Below, in pieces: positions 40,591 to 49,014 of a DNA stretch of 64,000 bases (positions within the stretch are counted from its first letter, which is position 1; each line of letters opens with the position of its first letter). A model generated the notes under the pieces. It did no database searches, was not told the origin of the DNA, and was given only the letters and a program-made list of their open reading frames with translations. This DNA is from Imtechella halotolerans (GTDB lineage Bacteria > Bacteroidota > Bacteroidia > Flavobacteriales > Flavobacteriaceae). The position numbers were made by a program, and so were the translations under genes. The stretch is taken from positions 5,001 to 69,000 of the forward strand of contig NZ_CP117969.2 in the NCBI RefSeq assembly GCF_028743515.2, given 5' to 3'.

Positions 40591-41934
40591 ATGTCAAACG
40601 ACATCCGTATTAAAAAAGGCTTGACATTGAAGTTGCAGGGAGAAGCAGAAAAGCTGCTCTCCGATGCACCTAGATCTCAGGTCTATTCTGTGAAACCGGC
40701 AGATTTCCACACGGTGACCCCAAAAATGGTAGTAAAAGAAGGTGAGGCAGTGAAGGCAGGAGATGTTTTATTTTTCTCCAAATATAACGATGCCATCAAG
40801 TTTGTTTCACCAGTAAGTGGAAAAGTGAAAGAAATACGAAGAGGTGCTAAACGTGTCATTCTAGACGTAGTTATCGAGGCAGATGCTACCGATGTCTACA
40901 AAGAGCATGGCGCTAAGGACTCATCAGTATTGTCTTCTGAAGAAGTGAAGCAATTTATGCTTGAATCAGGCCTTTGGCCATTTGTAAAGCAACGTCCTTA
41001 TGATGTTGTTGCTAATCCTAACGAAACCCCTAAAGCTATTTTTATTTCCGCATATGCAACGGCTCCATTGGCTGCCGATGTTGAGTTTGTGTTGAAAAAT
41101 AGCAAAGAAGATTTTCAAGCAGGTATTCAGGCAATATCTAAATTGACTTCTGGAAAAGTACACCTTTCAATTGGGAATGATGATGCGTCATTCTTAAATG
41201 AAGTGAAAGGGGTGGTGCTTCACAAGGTGTCTGGACCACACCCAGCTGGAAATGTTGGTGTTCAGATACATCACGTAGATCCTATCAATGCAGGTGAACG
41301 TGTTTGGGTTGTTTCACCAGAGGATGTCGCTATCATTGGAAGAACATTTAAGACAGGAAAATTTGACGCTACACGTGTTGTGGCTTTGGCAGGTTCTGAA
41401 GTGGCAAAACCACAGTATTACAAAGTGAAAATTGGAGCTCAGGTTTCAAGTTTTGTTGGAGCTATTCAAGGTAATGTGCGTGTAATTAGTGGTGATGTAC
41501 TTACAGGAGATAAAATCGCTGAAGGCGGTTTCTTGGGGTATTATCATAATTTAGTGACCATTATACCTGAAGGCAAAAATTACCGCATGTTCGGTTGGTT
41601 GCCTTTTAAAGACAATTATATACCTAGTATGTCTAAAACATCCTTGGCTTGGTTATCTCCTAATAAGAAGTATCGCGTTGATACCAATTTAAACGGTGAG
41701 GAAAGAGCTTTGGTTGTTACTGGAGAGATGGAAAAGGTTTTACCTATGGATGTTTATCCGATGCAATTGCTTAAGGCTTGTATGGCGGAAAACATTGAGA
41801 AAATGGAGAACCTTGGAATCTATGAGGTGACACCTGAAGATTTTGCATTGGTAGATTTTGCCTGTACTTCAAAAATAGAAGCTCAGGAAATCATCCGCCA
41901 AGGTTTAGACTTGATGATTAAAGAAGTTGGTTAA
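40591..41934 (+). CDS. nqrA: Na+-translocating NADH:quinone reductase subunit A
   Basis: First gene of the six-gene sodium pump that oxidises NADH, reduces menaquinone and expels Na+. NqrA is the peripheral cytoplasmic subunit near the quinone site, without membrane helices. The 447-aa protein is of usual length and has the RnfC-like N-terminal barrel (VKAGDVLFFSKYNDAIKFVSPVSGKVKEI), then VHLSIGNDDASFLN, VSGPHPAGNVGVQIHHVDPI (about 210) and MFGWLPFKDNYIP. nqrB follows after 11 bp. Confidence 0.96.
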   Translation: MSNDIRIKKGLTLKLQGEAEKLLSDAPRSQVYSVKPADFHTVTPKMVVKEGEAVKAGDVLFFSKYNDAIKFVSPVSGKVKEIRRGAKRVILDVVIEADATDVYKEHGAKDSSVLSSEEVKQFMLESGLWPFVKQRPYDVVANPNETPKAIFISAYATAPLAADVEFVLKNSKEDFQAGIQAISKLTSGKVHLSIGNDDASFLNEVKGVVLHKVSGPHPAGNVGVQIHHVDPINAGERVWVVSPEDVAIIGRTFKTGKFDATRVVALAGSEVAKPQYYKVKIGAQVSSFVGAIQGNVRVISGDVLTGDKIAEGGFLGYYHNLVTIIPEGKNYRMFGWLPFKDNYIPSMSKTSLAWLSPNKKYRVDTNLNGEERALVVTGEMEKVLPMDVYPMQLLKACMAENIEKMENLGIYEVTPEDFALVDFACTSKIEAQEIIRQGLDLMIKEVG

Positions 41935-41945
41935 AATTTGATACG

Positions 41946-43103
41946 ATGAGTTTTTTAAGAAATAAAATAGATCAACTAAAGAAGCCTTTTGAGAAAGGTG
42001 AAAAGTGGGAGAAAATGGCTCCTGCATTCAATGCGTTGGATACTTTTTTGTTTGTACCTAATCATACAACCAAAAAAGGAGCCCACATACGAGACGCAGT
42101 AGATTTGAAACGTACCATGATTGTGGTGGTGTTGGCTTTGTTGCCTGCATTATTTTATGGGATTTACAATACAGGATATCAACATTTCTCTCAATTAGGA
42201 GAAGCGTTTACCTTTATGGATGCTTTTGGGCACGGTGCCTTGAAGATACTTCCTATGATAGCTGTTTCGTACATCGTAGGTCTTGCTATTGAATTTGCCT
42301 TTGCAATTTACCGCGGTCACGAAGTGAATGAAGGATACTTGGTTTCAGGTATGCTTATCCCGATGATTATGCCAGTAGATATACCATTATGGATGTTGGC
42401 AGTTTCTGTAGCGTTTGCAGTGGTAATTGGAAAAGAAGCATTTGGGGGTACTGGTATGAATATCCTTAACCCGGCTTTATTAGCAAGAGCTTTTGCCTTC
42501 TTTGCATATCCTACTTATATGTCAGGAAACAAAGTATGGGTTTCTGAGGCAACTAATGTAGATGCCATTTCAGGAGAAACCATTTTAGGAACTTTGGCAG
42601 CTGGACATCAACCGACATATGACATGTGGAGTATGTTTGCAGGTTCTATTCCTGGGTCTATCGGAGAGACATCAACCTTATGGATTTTAGTCGGTGCAGC
42701 GATCTTAATCCTTACTGGAGTGGGTAGCTGGCGTATTATGGCAGGAGGGTTTATTGGTGCTGCAATAATGGGACTCTTGTTTAATGCTTGGGGAGCTAAT
42801 GCTTTGATGAGTTTTGAATGGACCTCACATTTATTGGTAGGTGGTTTAGCGTTCGGTGTTGTATTTATGGCTACCGATCCGGTATCGGCTGCTCAGACTA
42901 CTAGGGGAAAATGGATTTATGGAATTCTAATAGGGGTGTTCAGTATAATGATTAGGGTATTCAACCCAGCATACCCTGAAGGAGTAATGCTTGCAATCCT
43001 TTTGATGAACGTATTTGCTCCTACCATTGATCACTATGTGATAGAGGCAAGTGTGAAAAGAAGAAAGAAGCGTCTGGCCGCAACTAAAATTAAATCAGCT
43101 TAA
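41946..43103 (+). CDS. nqrB: Na+-translocating NADH:quinone reductase subunit B
   Basis: Central membrane subunit (385 aa, about ten helices) that carries covalent FMN and riboflavin and forms the Na+ path. The FMN attachment threonine is Thr212 in DAISGETILG, which fits the D-x-x-(S/T)-G-x-(T/S) pattern recognised by ApbE. It also shows the conserved GTGMNILNPALLARAF (about 168-183) and GSIGETSTLWIL. nqrC starts 2 bp after the stop. The apbE genes that would add the FMN lie just beyond the operon. Confidence 0.96.
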   Translation: MSFLRNKIDQLKKPFEKGEKWEKMAPAFNALDTFLFVPNHTTKKGAHIRDAVDLKRTMIVVVLALLPALFYGIYNTGYQHFSQLGEAFTFMDAFGHGALKILPMIAVSYIVGLAIEFAFAIYRGHEVNEGYLVSGMLIPMIMPVDIPLWMLAVSVAFAVVIGKEAFGGTGMNILNPALLARAFAFFAYPTYMSGNKVWVSEATNVDAISGETILGTLAAGHQPTYDMWSMFAGSIPGSIGETSTLWILVGAAILILTGVGSWRIMAGGFIGAAIMGLLFNAWGANALMSFEWTSHLLVGGLAFGVVFMATDPVSAAQTTRGKWIYGILIGVFSIMIRVFNPAYPEGVMLAILLMNVFAPTIDHYVIEASVKRRKKRLAATKIKSA

Positions 43104-43105
43104 TC

Positions 43106-43816
43106 ATGAATAGAGATAGTAATGCATATACATTTATCTTTGCTACTGTTATGGTAGTGGTTGTTGCTACGGCCTTGGCTTTTACAGCAACTTCTTTAAA
43201 GCCACGTCAAGATGACAACGCTCGTAAAGAAAAGATGCAAAATATTTTAGCTACTATTGGGGTTGATGTAGACCGCGATGGTGCTGAAGCTAAGTTTAAT
43301 CAATATATTACCGAACAATACTCACTTACTGCTGAAGGTGAAATTGATGAGACTACTAAAGCTTTTGATGTAGATTTAAATAAGGAATTGAAAAAACCTG
43401 TATCAGCACAGCGTTTTCCGATTTTTGTGGCCAATGTTGATGGTACTAAGTATTATGTGGTGCCACTTAGAGGAGCAGGACTATGGAATGCTATCTGGGG
43501 ATATATTTCTTTAGAAGAAGATTTGAATACTGTTAAGGGGATTTCTTTAGACCATGCTGGTGAAACTCCAGGACTTGGTGCTGAAATTACTCAAGGATGG
43601 TTCAAAGAGCGTTTTGAAGGAGAGAAGATCCAAGATCAAAGCGGTGAAATTGTAGGTGTTAATGTGCAAAAGGGATATGCTGGAGGAAATGATAAAAATG
43701 ACAACGCTGTGGATGCTATTTCTGGTGCAACTATCACAGGTGATGGTGTTACAGCAATGATTTCAGAGCGTCTTCAACATTACAAGCCTTATTTCGTTAA
43801 ACACTCTGTTCAATAA
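43106..43816 (+). CDS. nqrC: Na+-translocating NADH:quinone reductase subunit C
   Basis: 236 aa. One N-terminal membrane helix (about 10-30) precedes a periplasmic FMN-binding domain. The flavinylation site is Thr209 in [10 protein letters not shown], and [14 protein letters not shown] (about 149-162) is the FMN-domain signature. It carries the second covalent FMN of the pump. It lies 2 bp after nqrB and 17 bp before nqrD. Confidence 0.96.
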
Positions 43817-43833
43817 TTAAAATCGAAGAAATC

Positions 43834-44556
43834 ATGGCAAAAAATAAAATAGAAGAGAAGAAGAACCCAGTAGTTCTTTTTGTTTCAAAAGAAAAAGAGC
43901 CTTTGTTTTCCAAGAAGAACAGAGCGCTATTGTCTGACCCTTTCAATGATAACAACCCTATTACTGTTCAGGTATTGGGTATTTGTTCAGCATTAGCTAT
44001 TACAGTTCAGTTAAAGCCTTCGATAGTAATGGCAATAGCAGTTATGGCAGTAATGGCTTTTAGTAACGTTATCATTTCATTGATTCGTAATCTAATTCCT
44101 AACCGAATCCGTATTATCGTTCAATTGGTTATCGTTGCATCACTGGTAATCTTAGTTGATCAAATTTTAAGAGCTTTTGCTTACGATGTCAGCAAACAGC
44201 TTTCCGTATTTGTGGGACTTATTATTACAAACTGTATTGTAATGGGACGTTTGGAGGCATTTGCATTAGGTAATGGAGTTTGGAAGTCGTTCCTTGATGG
44301 TATTGGAAATGCTGCTGGTTATGGTATTATCCTTATTATAGTTGCTTTTTTCAGAGAATTACTAGGTTCTGGAAAGTTAATGGGCTATGAGGTGCTAGGT
44401 CATAAAGGTGCAACACTTGCAGAGTCTACTGGATTGTACGCTCTAGGTTATGAGAACAATGGGTTGATGTTATTGTCTCCCGCAGCTCTATTGACTGTAG
44501 GTGTTATAATTTGGGTTCAACGTATGAGAAACCGTAAACTCATTGAGAAAAACTAA
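43834..44556 (+). CDS. nqrD: Na+-translocating NADH:quinone reductase subunit D
   Basis: 240 aa, about six membrane helices. Family features: a basic cytoplasmic N-terminus, [26 protein letters not shown], and [35 protein letters not shown] (about 129-165). The Cys in TNCIVMGR is the ligand shared with NqrE for the intramembrane Fe-S centre. nqrE follows after 27 bp. Confidence 0.96.
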
Positions 44557-44583
44557 TTGTACTAACGTATAAACGTAGCAAAC

Positions 44584-45198
44584 ATGGATTATATTAATCT
44601 TTTCGTAAAAAGTATCTTTATAGAAAATATGGTTTTTGCCTATTTTCTAGGGATGTGTTCATACTTGGCAGTGTCCAAAACAGTAAAAACTGCCGTTGGT
44701 TTAGGAGCGGCCGTTATATTTGTTTTGGCCTTTACAGTGCCTGTTAACTATTTGTTGGATAATTACCTTCTTAAGCCAGGTGCGCTTACATGGCTTGGAG
44801 AAGACTATGCCAACATCGATCTAAGCTTCTTGAGCTTTATCATGTTCATTGCCGTTATTGCTTCAATGGTACAATTGGTAGAGATGATTGTAGAGAAGTT
44901 TGCCCCGGCACTTTACGGTGCTTTGGGTATTTTTCTTCCGTTAATTGCAGTAAACTGTGCGATTTTAGGAGGATCACTCTTTATGCAACAAAAGGACTTT
45001 GGAGGTGTTTCTGAAGCAGCTGTTTATGGATTTGGTTCTGGTATCGGATGGTTTTTAGCAATTTTAGCTATTGCTGCCATTCGTGAAAAAATTGCTTACT
45101 CCAATGTGCCAGCTCCTTTGAGAGGTCTTGGAATTACTTTTATCATCACAGGACTTATGGCTATAGGCTTCATGAGTTTTATGGGAATTAAATTATAA
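44584..45198 (+). CDS. nqrE: Na+-translocating NADH:quinone reductase subunit E
   Basis: 204 aa, about six membrane helices, homologous to NqrD with inverted topology. Visible signatures: [28 protein letters not shown] (about 8-35) with the Cys of the Fe-S centre, and [20 protein letters not shown] (about 118-137) with the second Cys. It lies 20 bp before nqrF. Confidence 0.96.
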
Positions 45199-45218
45199 AC
45201 CGAATCATAACTATAGAT

Positions 45219-46511
45219 ATGGATTATTCAGTAATCTTAGCCAGTTTAATAGTTTTCTTAGTACTTATTATAGTATTGGTGGCTATTCTATTGGGAGCAA
45301 AGGCAAAGCTGGTACCTTCAGGGCCAGTTACGCTAAAAATTAATGGAGAAAAAAATGTAGAAGTTTCCTCAGGAGGAACCCTATTGGGTACTCTTGGAAA
45401 TAATAAAATTTTCCTTCCATCGGCTTGTGGTGGAGGTGGAACTTGTATCCAATGTAAATGTCGTGTTTTGGATGGCGGTGGAGAAGCGCTTCCAACTGAA
45501 ACACCTCACTTTACTCGTAAAGAACTTGCCGAAGGCTGGCGTTTAGGTTGTCAGGTAAAGGTAAAGCAGGATATGGTAATTGAAGTTCCTGAGGAAATTT
45601 TTGGTATCAAAAAATGGGAGGCTGAAGTTGTAAGAAACTATAACGTGGCTTCATTTATCAAGGAGTTTGTGGTGCGTCTTCCTGAAGATATGCATTATGA
45701 GCCAGGTGGCTATATTCAGATTGAAATCCCGCCATGTGAAGTGAAGTATAGTGATATCGACATCACTGCTCACCCAGAGGAACATGAGACACCTGATAAA
45801 TTCAAAATTGAGTGGGATAAGTTTAACCTATGGCCACTTGTAATGAAAAATGGTGAAACGGTAGAGCGTGCTTATTCAATGGCTTCATATCCAGCAGAAG
45901 GACGTGAAATTATGTTGAATGTTCGTGTGGCTACTCCACCATGGGATCGTGCTAAAAATGGATGGGCTGATGTAAATCCTGGAATTGCATCTTCTTATAT
46001 CTTTTCTAAGAAACAAGGTGATAAAGTAGTTGTTTCTGGTCCTTATGGAGAATTCTTCATCAACGAAAGTGAAGCGGAAATGCTTTATGTAGGAGGAGGA
46101 GCAGGTATGGCACCTATGCGTTCCCATTTGTACCACTTGTTCCGTACGTTGAAAACTGGACGTAAAGTAACATATTGGTATGGAGGACGATCTAAACGTG
46201 AATTGTTCTATGTAGAGCATTTTAGAGCTTTAGAGCGTGATTTTCCAAACTTTAGATTCTATATTGCCTTATCTGAACCATTACCGGAAGATAACTGGAA
46301 AGTTAAAGATGGTTTGGATGGAGAAGGAGACGGTTTCGTAGGTTTCATTCACCAAGTTGTTATAGATAATTATTTGTCTAAGCATGATGCTCCTGAAGAT
46401 ATCGAATTTTATTTCTGTGGACCACCTCTAATGAATAAAGCTGTTGAAAAAATGGCTGATGATTTTGGTGTTCCTAAAGAGAATGTTCGTTTCGACGACT
46501 TCGGAGGATAA
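45219..46511 (+). CDS. nqrF: Na+-translocating NADH:quinone reductase subunit F
   Basis: 430-aa NADH entry subunit. It has an N-terminal membrane helix (about 5-26) and a 2Fe-2S ferredoxin domain with Cys70, Cys76, Cys79 and Cys111 ([14 protein letters not shown]...GWRLGCQ). An FAD domain with [15 protein letters not shown] (about 218) and an NADH domain with [13 protein letters not shown] and [13 protein letters not shown] (about 395) follow. It is the last gene of nqrABCDEF; a terminator lies 15 bp beyond. Confidence 0.97.
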
Positions 46512-46525
46512 TCATAACATAAATA

Positions 46526-46560
46526 TAAAAAGCCGGCTTATTAGTAAGTCGGCTTTTTTG
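46526..46560 (+). terminator. Rho-independent terminator of the nqr operon
   Basis: Stem AAAAAGCCGGCTTA / TAAGTCGGCTTTTT (one G-T pair), then T. It separates nqrF from the next small gene. Confidence 0.9.
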
Positions 46561-46587
46561 TTCCAAAAAATTGTATTTTTGATGACC

Positions 46588-46947
46588 ATGAATGAATTAA
46601 CTGAACAGGAGCTGCATAATTTGGCAATGAATGAGGTTGGTAAAACTTTAGAGCAAAAGGGGTGGGAATTTCTTGCCATAAATAGCCAACTTAACAAAAA
46701 TCCACAATTCGTATGTGTTGATGAGCGAAATCAAAAACATTTTGTTATTGTTAAAGCTATTTTGTATCCTGAAAACCCTATCGATTATGATATGATATTC
46801 ATGCAAACTTTAAAGGAGCACGCCTTAAAGTTTAATGCACGAATTTATTATGCTGGAGTGGGCCTTGCCAACGCTAAAGATTACGAATTGCCTCTTACCA
46901 CCTCTTCTGATTATATAGTTAATTTTAACGGATTAATTGAACTGTAA
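46588..46947 (+). CDS. Small conserved-looking protein next to nqrF, unknown function
   Basis: 119 aa, soluble, no signal peptide. In my memory of flavobacterial genomes a similar ~120-aa protein often follows nqrF and is sometimes labelled an NQR 'subunit F' although it has no flavin or Fe-S motif. The text reads like an alpha/beta fold: FLAINSQL, FVCVDERNQKHFVIVKAI, LKEHALKFNARIYYAGVGLANA. This resembles a PD-(D/E)XK nuclease-like core with the acidic residues of the E-x-K element missing. The frame is open back into nqrF. A TATTTTTG box at 46574-46581 sets the start at 46588 (46582 possible). apbE follows 10 bp later. Confidence 0.75.
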   Translation: MNELTEQELHNLAMNEVGKTLEQKGWEFLAINSQLNKNPQFVCVDERNQKHFVIVKAILYPENPIDYDMIFMQTLKEHALKFNARIYYAGVGLANAKDYELPLTTSSDYIVNFNGLIEL

Positions 46948-46957
46948 CCAAACCATT

Positions 46958-47986
46958 ATGAAAAAACTACTTTGGATTGTATTTGTTGGACTTGTATTTA
47001 GTTCATGTAATCGTGAATCCAATTTAATAACGAATACCGGATTTGCTTTCGGTCGTACTTATACAATTAAGTACTATGCCCTTGATGCCGAAACTGATTT
47101 TAAAGATGAGATAGAACTATTACTTAATGAGATTAATAAGTCAATTTCTGTGTATTTGCCTACTTCGGATGTGTCACGTATTAATGATGGTGACAATTCT
47201 ATTGTGGTAGATGAACATTTTAAGAATGTGTTTTTAAAATCCTATGAGGTATGGACACTAACCAATGGGGAATTTGATCCTACCGTTGGAGGTTTAGTTA
47301 ATGCCTGGGGGTTTGGTACAGAACAGCCTATTGATAATATTTCTCAAAAGGACATTGATAGTATTTTACAATTTACTGGTTTTGATAAGGTCACCCTTAC
47401 TAAGGAAGGACGTATTATTAAAACGCATCCCCAAGTGACACTTAATTTTAGTGGTCTTTCTAAAGGATATGCGATCGATCGTATTGGTGCTATGTTTGAA
47501 AGTAATGGTATTAAGGAATATTATATTCAAATGGGAGCAGAAATGCTGGTTAAAGGAGAGAAATTTAAAACTGTTCATGATGCTCCTATAACTATTGAGA
47601 ATCCTGATGGTCAAAATCCACAACAGTTATCTGTAAAGTTTACAATGGAAAATCAATCTTTAGGGACATCTGGTAACTATCGTCGTTTTAGGGTTGATTC
47701 TGAAACAGGTGAGCATTATGTGCATACAATTAACGTAAAGACTGGATATCCACAGCAGAGTAATGTATTAAGTTCTTTGGTACTTAGTACCGGATCCGCA
47801 ATGGAAGCCGATGCATACGCCACTGCATTGTTAGTCATGAAATTAGAAGATGCCAAGCAACTCCTTAAGAAAATTGATCACATTGAAGGATTTATTGTCA
47901 GCGCTGATGCTGATGGGGATATTCAACAATATACTACGCAAGGATTCAGGGAGGCAGAAAAAATTGAAGGACAATTCAAACAATAA
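46958..47986 (+). CDS. apbE: FAD:protein FMN transferase, copy 1 (lipoprotein)
   Basis: 342 aa. Transfers FMN from FAD to a Thr/Ser of target proteins such as NqrB and NqrC, on the periplasmic side. Signal with lipobox VFSSC (Cys17). Family features: GRTYTIKYY, GEFDPTVGGLVNAWGFG (about 105), FSGLSKGYAIDRIG with the conserved Lys (about 165), SLGTSGNYRRF (about 230), VHTINVKTGYPQQS, and the Mg2+-site MEADAYATALLVM. The start is set by the lipoprotein signal; the frame extends 7 codons upstream. It lies 10 bp after the 119-aa gene and 11 bp before a second apbE. Confidence 0.93.
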   Translation: MKKLLWIVFVGLVFSSCNRESNLITNTGFAFGRTYTIKYYALDAETDFKDEIELLLNEINKSISVYLPTSDVSRINDGDNSIVVDEHFKNVFLKSYEVWTLTNGEFDPTVGGLVNAWGFGTEQPIDNISQKDIDSILQFTGFDKVTLTKEGRIIKTHPQVTLNFSGLSKGYAIDRIGAMFESNGIKEYYIQMGAEMLVKGEKFKTVHDAPITIENPDGQNPQQLSVKFTMENQSLGTSGNYRRFRVDSETGEHYVHTINVKTGYPQQSNVLSSLVLSTGSAMEADAYATALLVMKLEDAKQLLKKIDHIEGFIVSADADGDIQQYTTQGFREAEKIEGQFKQ

Positions 47987-47997
47987 AATACTTTTTA

Positions 47998-49014
47998 ATG
48001 ACAAAAAACTTTTATCTAGCTTTAGTTGGTTTATCGCTTTTCATGTTTTCATGTTCTAAAAAGCAACCTCAAATTCATATTATTCATGGTAATGCACAAG
48101 GTAGTACATATACCATTAAGTATGTGTCTGATTCAGATATCGACTTAAAACCAGCTATTGATTCTATTTTAGAGGTGATTGACCTTTCCATGTCAACCTA
48201 TAGAGAGGAATCTATTATTTCACGAGTAAATGCAGGGGATAGCACATTGGTGGTAGATGCACATTTTATAAATGTATTTAACAAGGCTCAAGAAGTATGG
48301 AAGGCAAGTAACGGATTGTTTGATCCTACCGTAGGGGTTCTTGTTAATGCCTGGGGGTTTGGCCCTCAGAAAGGGATACAACCACCTTCTCCAGTTCAAA
48401 TTGACAGCTTACTAGATTTTGTTGGATTTGATAAGGTTGTGTTAACTGATAAACATACCATTGCCAAACGAAATCCTTTTGTTTCATTTGATTTTAATGC
48501 TATTGCGCAGGGGTATACAGTAGATGTGATTTCGGATTATTTATTGGGGAAAAATATAAATGATTTTATTACCGAAGTAGGTGGCGAAATGATTGCCATG
48601 GGCAAAAATACGGTTGAAGACAAAGATTGGATCATAGGTATAGATGACCCTCTTCAGCGTCCTGAAGAGCGTTCTCTAATCGCTAAAATCCGTTTGCAAG
48701 GGAAAGGAATGGCTACCTCGGGAAATTATAGAAAAGTAATTATTGATAGTGTGACAGGGCAACAGTATGTTCATACGATTAATCCTATTACAGGTTACAC
48801 GCAAAGGAGTACTATATTAAGTGTGACGGTTTTATCGAATACCTGCATGGAGGCTGATGCCTATGCCACCGCTTTTATGGTTATGGGAGTTGAAGATGTT
48901 ATTGGTTTTTCATCCCAACATCCTGAGTTGGAACTTATGCTTTTTTATGCAGATTCAGATAATATTGTACAGCAATACGTTTCTGATGGCTTTAAGAATC
49001 TAGTGGTTCCTTAA
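47998..49014 (+). CDS. apbE: FAD:protein FMN transferase, copy 2 (lipoprotein)
   Basis: 338-aa paralogue of the preceding apbE, with lipobox FMFSC (Cys19). It has the same order of motifs: GSTYTIKYV, GLFDPTVGVLVNAWGFG, GMATSGNYRKV, VHTINPITGYTQRS and CMEADAYATAFMVMG. It differs at the substrate-side loop, where IAQGYTVD replaces SKGYAID (Gln for Lys). The copies are clearly diverged, so this is an old tandem duplication, possibly with split targets. It is the last gene of the 119-aa/apbE/apbE operon and is convergent with the methyltransferase gene, 2 bp apart. Confidence 0.92.
   Translation: MTKNFYLALVGLSLFMFSCSKKQPQIHIIHGNAQGSTYTIKYVSDSDIDLKPAIDSILEVIDLSMSTYREESIISRVNAGDSTLVVDAHFINVFNKAQEVWKASNGLFDPTVGVLVNAWGFGPQKGIQPPSPVQIDSLLDFVGFDKVVLTDKHTIAKRNPFVSFDFNAIAQGYTVDVISDYLLGKNINDFITEVGGEMIAMGKNTVEDKDWIIGIDDPLQRPEERSLIAKIRLQGKGMATSGNYRKVIIDSVTGQQYVHTINPITGYTQRSTILSVTVLSNTCMEADAYATAFMVMGVEDVIGFSSQHPELELMLFYADSDNIVQQYVSDGFKNLVVP

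Follow-up and report, generated by a model that had tools for sequence, protein, structure and literature searches.

An unnamed small gene between nqr and tandem apbE genes encodes a predicted PD-(D/E)XK fold lacking the catalytic acids and co-occurs with nqr

The layout of NqrM proteins combines a transmembrane helix with a conserved cysteine cluster. NqrM (DUF539, PF04400) is a maturation factor of the V. cholerae NQR and is encoded by a small gene beside apbE and nqr, as described in the available part of the source (PMC12174285). In the literature found, NQR assembly outside the Proteobacteria is little described, and the searches returned no paper on the gene considered here. This is a 119-aa gene which, together with its protein and homologues, is called X in the following. 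It is carried on a 64,000-nucleotide stretch of DNA (the window, whose coordinates are used throughout), where it separates the nqr operon from two consecutive apbE genes (Table 1).

The preliminary description of this locus had placed a terminator after nqrF, then a new promoter box and a tight X-apbE1-apbE2 run, and the coordinates bear this out: nqrF ends at 46511, X and apbE1 are 10 bp apart, and apbE1 and apbE2 are 11 bp apart. Both target threonines that it had pointed to were also confirmed, within SGET in NqrB and SGAT in NqrC, while NqrD and NqrE are named from their position and their similarity to other nqr loci. The terminator is missing from the list of a generic terminator scanner, despite folding as the hairpin given in the table. 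Further downstream, the order nqr-X-apbE-methyltransferase-MetAP is a conserved synteny. As for NqrE, its C terminus carries a charged extension, bringing the protein to 239-267 aa, in 17 of the 24 X-containing loci with NqrE (L049, L050, L052, L071-L076, L083-L090), and the other seven, the window included, have an NqrE of 204-206 aa. In 17 loci without X the extension is missing, the protein being 204-207 aa long in 16 of them and 228 aa in one.

Table 1. Features of the nqr-X-apbE locus in the window, and positions of the four-cysteine gene in nqr loci of genomes without X.
Feature	Locus	Coordinates	Strand	Remarks
nqrABCDEF operon	window	40591..46511	+	carries flavinylation sites NqrB T212 and NqrC T209
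Intrinsic terminator of the nqr operon	window	46527..46558	+	14-bp hairpin, -17.6 kcal/mol, 3' arm ending in a T run
Bacteroidota -7 promoter box TAnnTTTG before X	window	46574..46581	+	sequence TATTTTTG; consensus from the available part of PMC6847099
X, unnamed soluble 119-aa protein	window	46588..46947	+	predicted PD-(D/E)XK fold, catalytic acids lost
apbE1, lipoprotein-type FAD:protein FMN transferase, 342 aa	window	46958..47986	+	PF02424 E 1.9e-67
apbE2, lipoprotein-type FAD:protein FMN transferase, 338 aa	window	47998..49014	+	PF02424 E 1e-76
Four-cysteine gene	L053	9722-9922	-	
Four-cysteine gene	L056	7159-7365	-	
Four-cysteine gene	L057	7599-7808	-	
Four-cysteine gene	L054	2403-2600	+	
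Four-cysteine gene	L055	4358-4561	+	
Four-cysteine gene	L060	4114-4296	+	
Four-cysteine gene	L067	4505-4711	+	
Four-cysteine gene	L070	294-485	+	

What kind of protein is X? It is strongly conserved among its relatives (alignment A1, 32 rows) and is regarded as a real gene because the mean column identity of that alignment is 63%, and yet no match was accepted for it in Pfam, NCBIfam, PHROGs, PADLOC or the sequences of the PDB. The best Pfam score, to PF18890, reached only E 0.12 and was rejected, with nothing from NCBIfam; PADLOC PDC-M64B (E 0.016) and the PHROGs scores (E at least 0.19) were treated as chance matches. Against the PDB sequences, X itself gave no match and its profile one at chance level (E 0.59), and the viral contigs and the plasmid collection held no X matches. 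UPF0102/YraN, which X may resemble, was not listed in a Pfam scan of X up to E 1. A scan of genome contigs confirmed two of 28 candidates, in Robertkochia solimangrovi (66%) and in a Cryomorphaceae MAG (56%). The first of these (L001) is the best named relative and belongs to the Flavobacteriaceae, so the family labelled f1 is presumably Flavobacteriaceae; the order studied would then be Flavobacteriales and the genus g57 Flavobacterium. The distant members form a tight set in family f83 (alignment A3), with 29-35% identity between the sets. In a genome without nqrA, a 289-aa protein (L045, 5933-6799) joins an N-terminal part of unknown kind to a C-terminal domain remotely like X, in which the N-P-Q and V-K motif is preserved.

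The structure was approached with an AlphaFold2 model of X built with alignment A1, which has a pLDDT of 94.3 and the order helix-three strands-helix-strand (H-EEE-H-E). When searched against the PDB with Foldseek, its best match has E 2.9e-3 (none at or below 1e-3), and the top matches are SPARDA nuclease chains, tRNA splicing endonucleases, Hjc, HincII, VRR_NUC and similar proteins, which we take to be PD-(D/E)XK-type folds. The highest Z, 10.2, belongs to the archaeal Hjc 1gef, which aligns over 92 residues with an rmsd of 2.1 and 21% identity. The model of an f83 member, made from an alignment in which 18 of the 23 rows are from f83, has a pLDDT of 94.7 and again places 1gef first (Z 10.5). 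Both models, as predictions, contain the alpha-beta-beta-beta-alpha-beta core of the superfamily, and X is confidently predicted to adopt a PD-(D/E)XK nuclease fold.

The catalytic residues of this fold are a different matter. Across 77 distinct homologues, P39-Q40 always occupies the expected PD position, and residue 54, corresponding to the (D/E) of (D/E)xK, is V, I, L, M or T and never acidic. V55 is invariant, residue 56 is R in 49, K in 24 and Q in 4, and E22 is kept in just 48. By this computation, in which the motif was placed on X by strand order and not by a residue-level structural alignment, X has lost the catalytic acids of the PD...(D/E)xK motif in the 77 homologues. It is from the fold models, together with Q40 and the non-acidic residue 54, that X is read as a nuclease fold without its catalytic acids. 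No transmembrane segment was detected in X (maximum KD19 0.68), and its pI, 4.9 in the window with a median of 6.1 and a range of 4.9-8.9 over 76 genes, fits protein binding better than nucleic-acid binding.

The distribution of X was compared with that of nqr. Among 395 genomes of the order, nqrA was scored as present at E 1e-40 or better in 199 (in 196 the curated cut-off was exceeded), and X was found in 56, all of which have nqrA (Fisher 2.4e-19, relatedness ignored). Counted by genus, the 38 genera with X all lie within the 86 of 109 that have nqrA (hypergeometric 1.1e-5, uncorrected for phylogeny). The computed occurrence of X in the sampled order is thus confined to genomes with nqr. 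Within f1 of this sample, X is present in 41 of the 43 genomes with nqrA. A control set of 63 f1 genomes combines these 41 and the two that have nqr and no X with 20 that have neither, all 20 from genus g57, so that they may represent a single co-loss event. ApbE and the neighbouring methyltransferase are each present in 63/63, with or without nqr, and since they persist without it, X tracks nqr and not the gene block or apbE. The converse does not hold: nqr comes without X in 143 of the 199 genomes of the order. In a second sample of 37 f1 genomes, one per genus, nqrB exceeds its cut-off in all 37 and X is present in 30, the seven without it including the single-contig genome G025. X is therefore not required for NQR.

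The preliminary description would have been contradicted by homologues of X being common in genomes without nqr. In the order, 56/56 genomes with X have nqrA, but exceptions occur elsewhere. Among 71 relatives of G309, X homologues occur in 32 genomes and nqrA in 64; 31 of the 32 have nqrA, and in the exception, G820 (f83, 95% complete), the sole match to nqrB is RNF-like and below the cut-off. This sample says little on the linkage because 41 of its 43 f83 genomes have nqrA. Two remote X matches (E ~1e-7) also fall in genomes without nqrA, and a wider profile (A2) left the class-level matches unchanged at 13/395. In a tree of concatenated Nqr proteins from 41 loci (midpoint root), most complexes from X-containing genomes fall in one clade, with L061 (G609, without X) inside it and L078-L081 (with X) outside. 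As for g57, the NQR of G533, which has nqrA and its own apbE and no X, lies in a region of the tree where X is mostly missing; the family-type nqr of G305 and G604 comes with X.

Where X lies in the genome is a separate question. Of the bias toward nqr or apbE that the preliminary description anticipated, the part toward apbE is strong and that toward nqr weaker. In 35 of the 41 f1 genomes, X lies upstream of an ApbE domain at a distance of no more than 250 bp, the other six comprising three at 1.2-2.6 kb from ApbE and three (G330, G619, G717) in which the two are unlinked or on another contig. With respect to nqr, X lies on the same strand and within 25 kb after nqrA in 27 of the 46 X-containing genomes for which the nqrA position is listed, and in 17 of those 27 within 5 kb, approximately where nqrF ends. 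In the remaining 19 it is not near nqrA, being 48 kb to 2.3 Mb away on the same contig in five and on another contig of a draft in 14, and the co-occurrence with nqr persists in these genomes. X usually opens its own unit with apbE, and the pair is also found where nqr is far (L035, L039, L040). In G004, nqrF and apbE are 38 bp apart and X is cleanly absent. Two g58 genomes that were read (L033, L034) have X directly after a DEAD-box helicase gene (by Pfam, for L033 only), with neither nqr nor apbE near it. Among the f83 loci (L100, L103-L121), 11 were read, and most of these place the X homologue ahead of a membrane protein of unknown family and a membrane-anchored protein, the latter thioredoxin-like in both cases tested (L112, L120); a transmembrane protein with a CCGxHxxC motif is seen in 11 of these 20 loci.

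The two apbE genes of the window score 228 and 258 bits against PF02424 (cut-off 25.6), and by eye both products have lipoprotein-type N termini, in which a hydrophobic stretch is followed by a cysteine. They are 43% identical, and in a quick tree each is missing from the five nearest relatives of the other, so they do not appear to stem from a recent duplication. Among the 41 f1 genomes with X, a side-by-side pair is found in the window's genome alone; in the rest, X is accompanied by a single apbE or has none nearby. Possibly the two enzymes divide the labour between NqrB and NqrC. In the VGGEM-type motif, apbE1 has GA where apbE2 has GG.

The start of X is also distinctive. A TAnnTTTG box ends exactly 4 nt before the ATG in 25 of 56 non-f83 X genes and lies within 10 nt of it in 29 of the 56, compared with about 1.3% in shuffles. 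With the stricter box TAHHTTTG and a 4-nt gap, 24 of 70 X genes (f83 included) are retained, compared with 0/53 for nqrA, 2/61 for apbE and 1/20 for MetAP; the f83 genes show the TAnnTTTG arrangement with a 4-nt gap in 0/20. The G of the box is placed at -5 in the available part of the source (PMC6847099), so a 4-nt gap would have the mRNA begin on the AUG, and the same rule yields a 2-nt leader for X in the window. The mRNA of X is accordingly predicted from the promoter spacing to be often leaderless, a feature conserved across many loci; in F. psychrophilum, leaderless mRNAs make up 5.5%, as given in the available part of PMC9723704. In the window, no well-spaced -33 TTTG was seen by eye. 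Translation is likelier to start at 46588 than at 46582, since the in-frame ATG at 46582 would precede the expected transcription start site.

What, then, lies beside apbE in genomes that lack X? Seventeen nqr loci of such genomes were read, with apbE in view in 11, and eight of the 17 encode a protein of 61-70 aa that has a single hydrophobic segment at its N terminus and carries four cysteines (GTCAS...C..CGA...C; Table 1). Its gene is convergent to apbE and within 500 bp of it or overlapping in seven loci, and about 4 kb away in L070. It was seen in no other locus examined, including seven f1 loci without X, three of them with apbE in view; in total, 14 loci without X show apbE, and seven of these have the four-cysteine gene next to it. 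It is also missing from 20 further apbE stretches (15 with X, four without nqrA, one from G609), and the protein has no Pfam or NCBIfam match. By analogy with the NqrM layout, it is a candidate NqrM-like factor, and X and the four-cysteine gene may be alternatives beside apbE. The Pfam family of NqrM itself, PF04400, was found in 0 of 10 nqr-containing genomes of the class, a count made with no positive control scored and hence not proof of absence. A broader proposal, that a nuclease fold without catalytic acids was recruited as an NQR biogenesis factor and that the nqr-apbE clusters of the order often carry either X or the four-cysteine gene, the latter in the role of NqrM, is speculative and quite unlikely as a whole; its weight is reduced by the three X-less f1 loci with apbE that show neither gene.

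For the function of X itself, the tentatively favoured reading, plausible though short of probable, is an action on NQR. X would bind protein, probably an NQR assembly intermediate at the cytoplasmic face, and would aid the assembly or stability of the complex while ApbE attaches FMN across the membrane, on the other side. Protein binding is favoured because X is an acidic, soluble and catalytically bare fold. The contrast within g57 between G533 and the pair G305 and G604 speaks for a link to NQR; counting against it are the many genomes that have NQR and no X, the bare nqrF-apbE junction of G004, and the g58 and f83 loci in which X has other neighbours. The preliminary description had put X forward as a candidate for NQR maturation or assembly; the nqr-linked distribution supports an accessory role, but X is dispensable for NQR, and we infer that its part could lie in maturation. 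X might instead have no role in NQR at all, being kept by lineages that keep NQR, for instance through their habitat, which NQR tracks, and sharing an inherited gene block. The conserved synteny would fit this, as would the restriction of the nqr-less controls to one genus, but the methyltransferase and ApbE stay in 20/20 of these controls and X does not, X is confined to nqr-containing genomes even when it lies elsewhere in the genome, and two g57 genomes with family-type nqr (G305, G604) have it; we consider this explanation possible, if on the whole unlikely.

A regulatory role, in which X as a nuclease-dead fold would bind DNA or RNA to tune the expression of nqr or apbE, is rather unlikely. 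The nearest folds of X are nucleic-acid enzymes, it usually heads its own unit with apbE and has a conserved near-leaderless start, and in two g58 genomes it follows a DEAD-box RNA helicase; however, its acidic to neutral pI (4.9 in the window) and the lack of an added DNA-binding domain argue against nucleic-acid binding. The immediate X-apbE pairs, found even where nqr is far, could also mean that X belongs to ApbE, supplying or channelling flavin for the transferase. This is improbable given that ApbE is of the lipoprotein type and presumably outside the membrane whereas X has no hydrophobic segment, and given that ApbE occurs without X in 22/22 X-less f1 control genomes, with G004 keeping nqrF and apbE and no X. 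Least expected is that X remains an active nuclease whose catalytic residues have moved, which would account for the Hjc fold match at Z ~10 and the invariance of P39, Q40 and V55; given that neither canonical site holds an acid in any of the 77 homologues, that E22 is present in 48/77 and that the context is respiratory, this is very improbable.

The new elements here, all computational, are a predicted nuclease fold without catalytic acids, its restriction to nqr-containing genomes within the order as sampled, and its pairing with apbE. Since the family is absent from Pfam and NCBIfam, follows nqr in the order and has a predicted pseudo-nuclease fold, X is a direct target for deletion; a second is the NqrM-like gene with four cysteines that lies next to apbE in some of the loci without X.

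Compared with described systems, X and NqrM are both encoded by small genes beside apbE and nqr, but X is without the transmembrane segment and the cysteine cluster: its hydrophobicity stays at or below the KD19 maximum given above, and Cys43 is not conserved, as several alignment rows have A, G, V or L at this position. With Hjc and VRR_NUC, X has the predicted fold in common and differs in the respiratory context, in having no match at the sequence level, and in the catalytic D and (D/E), which are replaced by an invariant Q and by non-acidic residues. The ApbE/Ftp proteins of NQR operons are the closest parallel for the downstream genes, with apbE after nqr, a lipoprotein-type product and a PF02424 domain in each case, and the window differs from them in carrying two tandem copies.
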